From positions 340,441 through 404,440 of the forward strand of contig NC_014387.1 of NCBI RefSeq assembly GCF_000145035.1: a stretch of 64,000 nucleotides of DNA, read 5' to 3'. This stretch comes from Butyrivibrio proteoclasticus B316 (GTDB taxonomy: Bacteria > Bacillota > Clostridia > Lachnospirales > Lachnospiraceae). Position 1 is the first letter of the stretch, and the number at the start of each line of letters is the position of its first letter. Positions 23,122-26,342 of this stretch are shown here, piece by piece. The notes below the pieces were generated by a model. It saw only the letters and a program-made list of their open reading frames with translations, had not been told where the DNA came from and did not search any database. Both the position numbers and the translations under genes were made by a program.

Positions 23122-23919
23122 TCAAATTTTGGAAAGTGCCTGTACAGCGTTATCTCTGACAAGTGTTGTATAATGCTCTGCAAGATACTGTTCCTCTGCA
23201 GTTGAACCAATCTCGGTCTTACCATATTCGGTGAGAAGAGAACAGATATTAGCAAATACATTATCTTCAAGCTCGCCCTGATGAAGTATCAGATAGAACT
23301 TGCCATTTGTTTCATTCTTGTACAATGTGTTGATACCATTGAATTTCCTGCTAACAATTGCAGCGAATCTAGTAACCTCGTGAAGAGAGTCAAATGAAAA
23401 GATTCTGGAACCTTTTCTGCTAGGTTGTCCCTTCTTGCGAGGGTTAGTAGTTTTTTCCTTAAGCTTCTTGGAATCTGAGAAAGGACTGCTCATTGAGGAA
23501 TCTAATGAATCACTAAGATTGCTGTGTTGCAGTCTTCGGAAAAGACCCATTACATCTTCTTCCTCATCCTCCTCATATTCTTCGTCCTCATCGTCGTAAT
23601 CGTATTCGTCCTCTTCATCTTCCTCGTGTACGGATGGAGCAAAATTGGAAAAACGTGTGTCCAACTCTTCGGGATCCTCTACCTTGGTAATAATAAGAAC
23701 AATACATTCTGAGTTGATGGGGATAGCTTCGATCATAAGAGGAGTGTCCTCAGCGTCAAAACCATATTGTAAATTTGCTTGCTGCATCATGTCCTGAAAT
23801 AGCTCTTTGGCTTTCTCGGTTCCATATGCAAGCTCTGTAATCTTAAGGTCGCGCTTCGCAAGGTCATCTTTGGTAAGTGTGCATCGAATCTGATGATCAT
23901 TGACTTTTTCAATTTTCAT
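23122..23919 (-). CDS. mecA: MecA family adaptor protein
   Basis: 265 residues; AGGAGG is nine bases before the ATG. The N-terminal domain MKIEKVNDHQIRCTLTKDDL is the MecA substrate-binding half. A very acidic linker (about 95-125, almost all Glu, Asp and Tyr) and a basic stretch (RKKGQPSRKGSR) separate it from the C-terminal half with FDSLHEVTRFAAIV, which contacts ClpC. MecA adaptors deliver proteins to the ClpCP protease. The acidic-basic linker is longer than in the Bacillus protein. It is monocistronic, with its own terminator. Confidence 0.92.
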   Translation of the reverse strand: MKIEKVNDHQIRCTLTKDDLAKRDLKITELAYGTEKAKELFQDMMQQANLQYGFDAEDTPLMIEAIPINSECIVLIITKVEDPEELDTRFSNFAPSVHEEDEEDEYDYDDEDEEYEEDEEEDVMGLFRRLQHSNLSDSLDSSMSSPFSDSKKLKEKTTNPRKKGQPSRKGSRIFSFDSLHEVTRFAAIVSRKFNGINTLYKNETNGKFYLILHQGELEDNVFANICSLLTEYGKTEIGSTAEEQYLAEHYTTLVRDNAVQALSKI

Positions 23920-24109
23920 GATGCTTACCTCCTGACTTTGGAATACATAGATACTAATTTATTGAGTATTCTATGTCAATAGAGTTATCGTCAGATTTTA
24001 CAAAAAAATTAAATTTTGTACAATTTAACGATTGGAATTAGGAAAAAATTTTCCATCTTAATAAAATCTTAAGAAATTTCGATGGTAAATCTTAATAATT
24101 TCCTAGTAC

Positions 24110-24115
24110 TATAAA
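24110..24115 (+). promoter_or_regulatory. Probable -10 element of the candidate structured RNA
   Basis: TATAAA ends seven bases before the first G of the long-range stem described next, which places the start point at the foot of that stem. No clear -35 is seen upstream. Confidence 0.4.
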
Positions 24116-24120
24116 TTTTG

Positions 24121-24377
24121 TGAGGCGCCTGCCTGGACATTACAGTCCGGAAAGGAGGCGAGAATCAGAAACATAATCGTTATTTTCTTTTATTCATTGT
24201 TTCATATGCCAGTATGAAATGTCTTACTAAGATTTATTCGATTTAGTTTCTTAAATTATTTTCACAAAAACAACGTTAATTGCATAGACAATTTATAGTA
24301 TTTTCCTAATACTATTATACCATATTTGGTGAAATCGACATGCACCAAAACTAAGGACTAGGCAAGTGGCGCCTCGG
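24121..24377 (+). ncRNA. Candidate structured non-coding RNA of about 255 nt, family not identified
   Basis: In a 719-base gap (23920-24638) with no credible ORF, two G+C-rich islands sit in A+T-rich surroundings. GAGGCGCC (24122-24129) plus GCCT (24131-24134) pairs with AGGC (24360-24363) plus GGCGCCTC (24368-24375), closing the whole element. Inside are hairpins GGAC/GTCC (24135-24148), ATAGTAT/ATACTAT (near 24297-24315) and TTTGGTG/CACCAAA (24325-24349). CGCCT (24126-24130) can alternatively pair with AGGCG (24156-24160). This layout suggests a structured RNA with a closing stem. raiA-type or 6S-type RNA are possibilities that could not be tested here. The rest of the gap is A+T rich and looks empty. 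Confidence 0.45.
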
Positions 24378-24602
24378 ATATTAATATACGTCAAAAGAAA
24401 ATGTGGCTTTTACATGAATGCTTCAGAATTTATCACATGCATAATACCTTTTGGTTCTGAAAAAGACACAATATAATAAGGAAAAAGTGCATAAAAACTA
24501 TCAATAATCATCGCTAATATATAAAGAGGACCCCGCCTTACATATACATATTAAAAATGCGATATGCACAGAGACTTAAATAATGACGTATATTGAATAG
24601 TT

Positions 24603-24611
24603 TGCTATAAT
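24603..24611 (+). promoter_or_regulatory. Extended -10 promoter for the GH18 gene
   Basis: TGC followed by a perfect TATAAT, 28 bases before the ATG; the -35 region is weak. Confidence 0.55.
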
Positions 24612-24638
24612 ATAGAGCGATTGTAAAGGAGCTAGGAC

Positions 24639-26342
24639 ATGAAAAAGAAAGTAATTCCAGCGATTATTATAATCGCTCTTATTTTAGTTATTGGCGGAAT
24701 ATATGCCGCGCAAATAGCTTATCAGCATTATTCATACAGTGATGAAAGGGCTGATCTTAACAACTACTTTGATATCAGTAGTGATACAGATGTTGCTATT
24801 ATCCTTGGAAATGAGAGGATAGAAGAGAGAGCAAGACTTTTGGACGGCCATTATTATATGGATTTTGCATCAGTACAGAAGTATCTTAACGATAGATTCT
24901 ACTATGGAGAGGCAGATAATTCTCTCTTTTACACAACTGCAAGTAAGGTGATCATAGCAGAGGTTGGTTCCACAACATGGACAGATTCAACAGGTACGTC
25001 TGAGGATGTGGGTTACGTGATTGCCAGAACAGAAGGCGAAGAACTCTATGTTGCTCTTGATTATGTAAAGAAATATACAAATTTCTTTTACGAGGGATTT
25101 ACAGAGCCTAATCATATGCAGCTCACTACAAGTTGGGATGATGAGAAGATTGCTTCTATTAATAAAGATACACAGCTTCGACTTCGTGGTGGTGTTAAGA
25201 GTGAAATCCTTATTGATCTTGCCAAGGGAGATACTGTTACAGTTCTGGAAGAGCTTGAGAACTGGACAAAAGTTAAGAGCTCAGATTCTTATATTGGATA
25301 TGTAGAGAATAAGAGACTTTCTGACATTACAACTAAGAGCCCGATTCCTGTAACTGATTATGTAGAAGAAGAGTATACATCACTTAACAGAGGGCATAAG
25401 ATCAACCTGGGCTTCCATAATATTGGTGGTGTTGCGGGTAACGATACATTTTCATCGGTTGTTGCCGGAGCAAAGAGCCTTAATGTAATCTCTCCAACAT
25501 GGTTCAAACTTAATTCCAATGATGGAGATGTGACAAGCATAGCGTCAGCTTCTTATGTTAGAGCAGCTCATGACAAGGGTCTTGAAGTGTGGGCTTTGTT
25601 CGATAACTTTACAGGAACAGGAGATTTTTCCACAACAGAGTTTCTTTCTCGTTACAAGAGCAGACAGAACGCTATTGATCAGCTTATGGCTCTTGCTACT
25701 GAAATGGGTGTTGATGGGATCAATCTGGATTTTGAGACTATCGATTATGAAGATGGACAGTCTTACGTGGAATTTGTAAGAGAATTATCTATTGCCTGCA
25801 GAGCAAATGGGCTTGTTTACTCAATAGATGACTATGTGCCTATGCATTTTAATGACCACTACAACCTTAGAGAACAGGGAATTGTAGCAGATTATGTGAT
25901 CATCATGGGATATGATGAGCATTACGCCGGATCTGCTGAGGCCGGATCTGTAGCTTCTCTTAGTTATGTAGAAAATGGTCTAATTAATACGACAGCCAAG
26001 GTTGATCCATCCAAAGTTATTAATGCTGTTCCATTTTATACCAGAATATGGCATACTTCTGGAGGCGCTCTTTCAAGTGAAGCAGTGTCAATGCAGACTG
26101 CCAAGGATTATATTTCTAATCATAGTATTGAGCTGACCTGGGATGTAGAAGCCGGGCAGAACTATGGAGAATTTACATCTTCAGAAGGAACCTTCAATCA
26201 GATTTGGATGGAGGATGCTACTTCCATCGGCCAGAAGATTGATTCTATGAGAGCTCAGAATATTGCCGGAATTGCAGAATGGTCACTTGGCATGGAAACA
26301 CCAGATGTTTGGGACGTTATTGCAGGTTATATCGAGGAATAA
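24639..26342 (+). CDS. Membrane-anchored GH18-family protein with SH3 domain (YaaH/chitinase-like)
   Basis: 567 residues after AAAGGAGC. An N-terminal hydrophobic anchor (5-24) is followed by a domain resembling the copper amine oxidase N-domain (about 48-110), a bacterial SH3 domain (about 172-228) and a GH18 TIM barrel (about 255-567). The GH18 signature is DGINLDFE (about 356-363), whose final Glu is the catalytic acid. Relatives hydrolyse N-acetylglucosamine links in peptidoglycan or chitin; SH3 domains bind the wall. It probably remodels peptidoglycan at the outer membrane surface side of the cell envelope. The next gene starts almost at once, so they may share a transcript. Confidence 0.87.
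   Translation: MKKKVIPAIIIIALILVIGGIYAAQIAYQHYSYSDERADLNNYFDISSDTDVAIILGNERIEERARLLDGHYYMDFASVQKYLNDRFYYGEADNSLFYTTASKVIIAEVGSTTWTDSTGTSEDVGYVIARTEGEELYVALDYVKKYTNFFYEGFTEPNHMQLTTSWDDEKIASINKDTQLRLRGGVKSEILIDLAKGDTVTVLEELENWTKVKSSDSYIGYVENKRLSDITTKSPIPVTDYVEEEYTSLNRGHKINLGFHNIGGVAGNDTFSSVVAGAKSLNVISPTWFKLNSNDGDVTSIASASYVRAAHDKGLEVWALFDNFTGTGDFSTTEFLSRYKSRQNAIDQLMALATEMGVDGINLDFETIDYEDGQSYVEFVRELSIACRANGLVYSIDDYVPMHFNDHYNLREQGIVADYVIIMGYDEHYAGSAEAGSVASLSYVENGLINTTAKVDPSKVINAVPFYTRIWHTSGGALSSEAVSMQTAKDYISNHSIELTWDVEAGQNYGEFTSSEGTFNQIWMEDATSIGQKIDSMRAQNIAGIAEWSLGMETPDVWDVIAGYIEE

Follow-up and report, generated by a model that had tools for sequence, protein, structure and literature searches.

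A gap of 719 bases separates the start codons of mecA and a GH18/SH3 gene in the window, the whole 64,000-nucleotide stretch of Butyrivibrio proteoclasticus B316 DNA that was analyzed (genome size 4,404,886 bases in 4 contigs, the first of 3,554,804 bases). The gap has a G+C content of 30% versus 41.5% for the window and holds no ORF of at least 40 codons, in agreement with the initial annotation, which had seen no ORF in these 719 bases. The GH18 gene adjoins the predicted RNA in 14 other Lachnospiraceae genomes by tblastn, and the spacing between mecA and the next gene is not constant among relatives. The start of the GH18 mRNA (24617-24680) carries AGCGATTG in the window and GGGCGATTG in many relatives, and it can pair with AATCGC within the first codons. 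Inside the GH18 coding start lies a terminator-like hairpin (24659-24677) that ends in a T-rich tail. Many relatives look similar by eye in the pairing and in the hairpin. The features of the locus are collected in Table 1.

Table 1. Features predicted at the mecA-GH18 locus and copies of the promoter box elsewhere in the genome (positions are those of the window).
Feature	Position	Strand	Basis or remark
mecA, adaptor protein, PF05389	23122..23919	-	start at 23919; transcription directed away from the RNA
Promoter box (copy 1), 29 bases, TCTTAAGAAATTTCGATGGTAAATCTTAA	24067..24095	+	before the RNA; candidate direct-repeat site for an OmpR-type response regulator
Predicted -10, TACTAT	24107..24112	+	extended form TGNTANNAT in 30 of 34 clade-1 loci, absent here
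Predicted structured non-coding RNA, ~420 nt	24120..24540	+	5' end inferred from promoter, 3' end from loss of conservation
P1 closing stem, 5' arm GAGGCGCC	24122..24129	+	34-genome covariation
P1b second long-range helix, 5' arm AGUCC	24144..24148	+	34-genome covariation
Conserved GGAAAGGAGGC, Shine-Dalgarno-like	24149..24159	+	alignments A1 and A2
P2	24168..24250	+	folding model; seen in the closest genomes, uncounted
P2 pairs GAAAC/GUUUC	24168-24172/24246-24250	+	
P2 pairs AAUCG/CGAUU	24175-24179/24239-24243	+	
P3 hairpin	24200..24219	+	covariation; conserved UGUCUUAC next to it, 24220-24227
Extended -10 match, TATGGTATAAT	24314..24324	-	opposite strand; candidate antisense or second mecA promoter
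Hairpin UUUGGUG/CACCAAA	24325..24349	+	folding; by eye, several relatives have other stems here
P1b 3' arm GGACU	24355..24359	+	34-genome covariation
P1 closing stem, 3' arm GGCGCCTC (RNA GGCGCCUC)	24368..24375	+	34-genome covariation
Conserved UUAUCAC (DNA TTATCAC)	24430..24436	+	alignment, motif chains; UAUAUCAC in distant relatives
Conserved CCUUUUGG (DNA CCTTTTGG)	24447..24454	+	alignment, motif chains
P6 small 3' hairpin	24526..24539	+	C-rich loop ACCCCG at 24530-24535; flank-swap folding test
Predicted GH18 promoter, ATGACG-17-TATAAT	24583..24611	+	separate from that of the RNA; consensus scan; recurs in relatives by eye
GH18/SH3 gene	24639..26342	+	neighbor on the other side; start at 24639
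Box copy			before VanR-like response regulator gene; best NCBIfam match NF033117, 286.5 bits, below the cut-off of 350
Box copy			before a protein with a sub-threshold MORN match, then rlmH (176.8 bits, cut-off 172)
Box copy			before Rpn-family nuclease (L198), 78.4 bits, cut-off 52.1
Box copy			before an ORF without NCBIfam match (L203)
Box copy			before a small gene pair (L201), toxin-antitoxin-like by eye

Two alignments were used to delimit the element. A1 contains 34 close Butyrivibrio loci, the window's own included, aligned on sequence alone; A2 contains 16 further same-genus loci, with L064 omitted for having no recognizable element. In A1 and A2 the promoter, the 5' arm, GGAAAGGAGGC, the hairpin with UGUCUUAC and the 3' arm follow in the same order on the same side of mecA, and UUAUCAC, CCUUUUGG and the C-rich hairpin come after the 3' arm. 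Some elements are absent or unaligned in A2 rows; in L050-L052, L061 and L062 the alignment misplaces the 3' arm, which is recognizable there by eye. The initial annotation had estimated a transcript of ~255 nt ending near 24380. UUAUCAC, CCUUUUGG and the C-rich hairpin all lie beyond that end, and since conservation runs 3' to ~24540 the conserved unit is ~420 nt. The element is non-coding: no ORF start column is common to more than 12 of the 34 sequences, and the spacing of the two P1 arms falls in all three frames (13, 12 and 9 sequences). No start codon was seen at the usual distance from the Shine-Dalgarno-like GGAAAGGAGGC.

Covariation was counted on the 34 sequences of A1. The closing stem P1, which the initial annotation had proposed from the sequence of the window, has 97.4% of cells paired with both-sided changes in 4 of 8 pairs. 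The annotation had extended this stem with GCCU/AGGC as its second part; the conserved second helix is instead P1b, AGUCC/GGACU, with 96.5% of cells paired and both-sided changes in 3 of 5 pairs. P3 has 91.2% of cells paired and both-sided changes in 6 of 7 pairs. Taken jointly, P1, P1b and P3 have 95.0% of cells paired, both-sided changes in 13 of 20 pairs, 105 both-sided cells versus 35.6 in shuffles, and a covariation score of 0.487 versus 0.290, which none of 500 shuffles reached. The count of further pair types is not unusual (29 versus 26.9; 57 of 500 shuffles as high). Because the shuffles ignore relatedness, weight falls on the slid control and on the variety of pair types: sliding the three helices together by 1-3 columns lowers pairing to 30-47%, and P1 pair 15-354 occurs as AU (19), GC (11) and GU (3) and pair 16-353 as CG (16), UA (15) and UG (2). 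G-U cells exceed A-C cells in P1 (29 versus 3) and in P3 (19 versus 6), which indicates that the RNA is read on the plus strand. Compensatory covariation is thus present in long-range helices, as looked for in a stand-alone structured non-coding RNA, and a conserved structured plus-strand RNA almost certainly exists at 24120-24540, as judged from comparative sequence data.

Three further pairings were considered. The local helix CGCCU/AGGCG, read earlier as a switching partner of the closing stem, can form in 92.4% of cells; it has little covariation (4 both-sided cells, and 8 of 500 shuffles scored as high), which speaks neither for nor against a switch. Pairing of a 3' GCC with the GGC after GGAGG was rejected because by eye it is inconsistent between genomes. 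The candidate pseudoknots GGAAGG/CCUUUU or CCAA/UUGG vary little between genomes by eye.

Thermodynamic folding depends on the length of the stretch. On the plus strand, 271 bases fold better than 200 of 200 dinucleotide shuffles (z = -3.98), and on the minus strand z is -3.55 with one shuffle equally good. For 421 bases, z is -1.55 on the plus strand (8 of 100 shuffles equally good) and -0.35 on the minus strand. The lowest-energy fold of the 421 bases lacks the closing stem, and the 5' arm pairs with the 3' end instead. With an unremarkable z and the closing stem missing from this fold, thermodynamics by itself carries little weight, and the comparison of genomes is decisive.

Of 99 genomes, counting the window's own, 95 gave a mecA match, and upstream DNA was taken for 62 loci besides the window's own. 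A plain DNA search of 99 genomes (own included) matched 14, mostly in short pieces, and was too insensitive. At E 1e-4 or better, a model of the 5' domain (R1; 114 positions, 32 sequences) matched the window's locus as well as 51 of the 60 same-genus relatives, with its training sequences among the loci tested. R1 gave no match to L064, L067, L069, L070, L072, L073 and L074 and only E 0.033 for L071; G017 was outside the test. Over whole genomes, R1 matched 4 of 397 in a family sample and 6 of 391 in a class sample, own included, all Butyrivibrio except two. These genome results first suggested a genus-bound element, a view overturned by named mecA loci, of which 80 were kept from 335; many come from the same assemblies as the same-genus set and are not independent of it. 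R1 matched 43 of the 80 (E 3.6e-5 or better), in every case upstream of mecA and on the opposite strand, including Lachnospiraceae bacterium 28-4 and Kineothrix alysoides. Sixteen of 18 weaker rows fall at the same place and strand.

More distant Lachnospiraceae were examined with two motif chains, GUCUUA..UUUUCCA (chain 1) and UAUAUCAC..CUUUUGG (chain 2), in the 39 of 44 loci with enough upstream DNA. Chain 1 occurs in 25 of the 39, chain 2 in 28 and both in 19; in all, 34 loci have one chain or both, on the same strand and in the same place. The chains were written after inspecting 11 of these loci and are not an independent test for those 11, and L127 and L128 belong to the same metagenome bin. 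Controls on the reverse strand, farther upstream and on both strands downstream of mecA gave 0-1 hits, and shuffles gave means of 0.4, 0 and 0 for chain 1, chain 2 and both (largest 3, 0 and 0). Pairing was then scored between the 5' segment of each locus and its own or others' 3' segments, using 37 distant loci (2 dropped) that reduce to 29 distinct ones. The mean was -22.6 with the own partner versus -16.3 with others', and 0 of 20,000 permutations were as good. The own partner ranked first in 6 of 29 loci with a mean rank of 5.2, and some best duplexes (L143, L155 and L161) are mis-anchored and plainly other than the closing stem. Alignments, covariation, motif chains and own-partner pairing together support the earlier view of a structured non-coding RNA of Lachnospiraceae whose ends are conserved and whose middle varies.

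A sequence-only model (R2; 70 positions, 30 sequences) matched 16 of 397 family genomes. In the 13 best (E 6.5e-5 or better), GH18 adjoins in all 13 and mecA in 12; in the remaining one (L173) GH18 is present and the contig ends before mecA. R1 also matched one of these 13, G412, and two others, G294 and G446, contain R2 training contigs. The four weakest family matches have neither mecA nor GH18 beside them. R2 gave four partial matches over 381 class genomes (E 4.6e-4 to 9.3e-4), which are as weak as the family matches lacking both neighbors and so give no evidence for the RNA outside Lachnospiraceae. Within the sensitivity limits of these searches, the predicted family occurs in Lachnospiraceae with position and strand conserved beside mecA and usually GH18, and at the sensitivity used this genome has one copy of the RNA. 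By eye, L153 has a small ORF of the MYKEEDEIKLEKHL..YLEDRPASPEEIA type soon 3' of the RNA's 3' elements; L163, L174 and some other distant loci also have a small ORF there, which in L174 separates the RNA from the GH18 gene.

Searches with Rfam 15 at gathering score gave no match over the whole window or in 20 distant loci. Permissive searches gave five weak matches of unrelated kinds at the locus (E 0.76 to 9.7) and one match among 8 distant loci, RefA9 at L168 (34.7 bits, cut-off 49), which lies outside the RNA. The initial annotation had named raiA and 6S RNA as the first families to consider, and the covariance models of both fail to match here. raiA (RF03072) has no match at the locus or in the whole genome, in a genome search that matched 0 of 14 control genomes, and 6S RNA (RF00013) has no match at this locus. 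The 6S RNA of this genome is found at C1:1305197-1305404 (50.1 bits, cut-off 46.4). 6S RNA is a stand-alone RNA with a long stem, and the RNA described here would share this plan at a different locus.

The accessible part of PMC11706538 describes raiA/ModT as a trans-acting structured RNA of Bacillota, independent of any one downstream gene. The RNA described here is similarly structured and from Bacillota, and would likewise act in trans without being bound to one downstream gene; it differs in length, ~420 nt versus ~215 nt for the raiA/ModT motif, and in its neighbors. OLE, given as ~600 nt in the available portion of PMC9723947, and other large structured bacterial RNAs are likewise large, structured and from Bacillota, and no such family reached the Rfam gathering score here. 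The Clostridium phytofermentans transcription unit cphy2658/cphy2659 was considered as the same RNA and rejected on its position as described in the accessible part of PMC5171806, because the distance is given to the cphy2659 stop codon, whereas this RNA is flanked by start codons on both sides. The RNA-discovery papers PMC8632094 and PMC11109978 name neither Butyrivibrio nor mecA in the available main text, and no description of this RNA was found in the main texts of the open-access papers searched. PMC6344614 names RNA-seq data for B. proteoclasticus B316 and B. hungatei MB2003 (GEO GSE120544), from which its authors filtered out reads that aligned to noncoding RNA. We regard the RNA as a new family within a known kind, the stand-alone structured bacterial RNAs; it matches no Rfam family.

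The initial annotation took TATAAA as the -10 element; TACTAT (24107-24112) is likelier. The window's clade has no evident plain -35, and a consensus scan lists no site before the RNA in this genome. At least two TCTTAAGA-like repeats occur where the -35 would be in 34 of 34 clade-1 Butyrivibrio loci. In clade 2 and the distant loci, a sigma-70-like TTGACA/TATAAT promoter usually precedes the 5' arm. The mean best promoter score over 54 loci is 9.13 of 12 versus 6.45 for mononucleotide shuffles (sd 0.33, largest mean 7.35); 32 of the 54 reach 9, and in 13 the top-scoring site is more than 20 bases away from where the scanned stretch ends.

The 29-base promoter box has its sole match in the window before the RNA, with 0 in 100 shuffles. 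Allowing up to 3 mismatches, this genome has 7 copies and four relatives have 2 to 7 each, and the backwards pattern gave 0. Downstream genes were read for 6 of the 7 copies (Table 1), which form a candidate regulon defined by the box sequence. One copy precedes a VanR-like response regulator gene, whose NF033117 score is below the cut-off, so no vancomycin-resistance function is claimed for it. The following gene, in the part read, has no Pfam or NCBIfam match; from its position, our guess is a kinase. Because the regulator gene itself carries the box, we propose that the VanR-like protein binds it. Control of the RNA by this regulator in Butyrivibrio is predicted with even chances. The box was seen in clade 1 only, and a distant-type repeat, searched in 3 genomes, matched in one (G294), where the RNA is its sole site, so a link to this regulator does not extend to the whole family. 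Two TTTTTACATTTC-like repeats ~20 bases apart just precede the RNA promoter in distant loci such as L136, L168 and L171, a layout that resembles the TCTTAAGA repeats of Butyrivibrio.

Flank swaps were used to evaluate the 3' hairpin P6. The native mean folding energy over 69 distinct loci is -2.89 versus -1.72 for swaps, with 0 of 500 swaps as good (0, 1 and 2 of 500 by group). A C-rich core was not returned by rule in 14 of 89 loci, and at least five (L044-L048) gave the wrong site. Columnwise support is modest, with 75.7% of cells paired, in part because the loops shift. Given these misses, a C-rich loop is present on a conserved hairpin, the arrangement expected of C-rich-loop antisense sRNAs. 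RNAIII and RsaE of Staphylococcus are examples of C-rich-loop small RNAs in Gram-positive bacteria. The C-rich hairpin loop is what they share with this RNA, the sequence relation being compared via Rfam only.

A trans-acting regulatory RNA would account for the predicted promoter of the RNA, its separate fold and its C-rich loop. The promoter would drive a stand-alone RNA, which in Butyrivibrio would be activated by an envelope-type two-component regulator, the VanR-like protein whose own gene has the 29-base box. P1 and P1b would keep the rest of the RNA folded. The folded RNA would act in trans, with the ACCCC of the 3' hairpin loop pairing to G-rich ribosome-binding sites of target mRNAs and lowering their translation. 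Taken by itself, this antisense mechanism on ribosome-binding sites is suggested tentatively from the loop sequence. The whole account of a stand-alone conserved RNA that is regulator-activated and acts in trans through its C-rich loop is considered fairly probable.

The main rival of a trans-acting regulatory RNA is a ribonucleoprotein scaffold or decoy of the OLE or 6S kind, which would bind a protein or, by way of the Shine-Dalgarno-like GGAAAGGAGGC, the 30S subunit, with no antisense pairing. Its large size, its strong long-range fold and the conserved elements beyond the counted helices (GGAAAGGAGGC, UUAUCAC and CCUUUUGG) would suit such a role, but no dedicated partner gene is recognized beside the RNA, and we regard it as possible and on the whole unlikely. 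Next is a cis-acting, riboswitch-like leader that senses a signal and controls readthrough into GH18 or, in some lineages, into the following small ORF. All 13 strong R2 loci and the two R1 genomes from outside Butyrivibrio have GH18 on the far side, no terminator-like site was found between the RNA and GH18 in the window, and an ORF begins soon after the CUUUUGG element in L153, L163 and L174. However, a separate predicted promoter precedes GH18, by eye also in relatives, L174 keeps the RNA despite another ORF between it and GH18, and the variable spacing between mecA and the next gene also argues against a leader, which we consider improbable.

The opposite strand was weighed as a source of a long mecA leader, antisense to the RNA, that would start from a conserved extended -10 inside the element. 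The extended -10 consensus of Gram-positive bacteria, TRTGN-TATAAT, is fully matched by TATGGTATAAT; the minus-strand TATGNTATAAT changes only at its free position in 34 genomes and occurs once in the window versus 0.05 expected. Against this origin, the G-U versus A-C cells favor the plus strand, the P1 3' arm is upstream of the minus-strand start, mecA itself has a nearer promoter-like site (TTGACA-17-TAGTAT), and the TG is missing in distant loci examined by eye. A mecA leader is therefore very improbable; a minus-strand transcript may coexist as an antisense RNA. The promoter box and the promoters on both strands of the gap would also suit a DNA-level inverted repeat or other regulatory DNA without a functional RNA, an explanation made scarcely credible by compensatory changes with G-U but hardly any A-C cells in arms ~240 bases apart, by the promoter-anchored 5' end and by the other motifs in conserved order.

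The trans-acting regulatory RNA can be read more broadly as an undescribed class of large RNA at the mecA-GH18 locus of Lachnospiraceae, which in Butyrivibrio would be the output of an envelope-sensing VanR-like two-component system with a global effect on translation, and which would combine a Shine-Dalgarno mimic (GGAAAGGAGGC) and an anti-Shine-Dalgarno C-rich loop in one fold. This extension is doubtful. Lachnospiraceae are dominant gut and rumen bacteria, and a large RNA that is conserved at one fixed locus, and for which a response regulator is predicted in Butyrivibrio, is a directly testable entry into function. A covariance seed would allow annotation of the RNA in many gut genomes.
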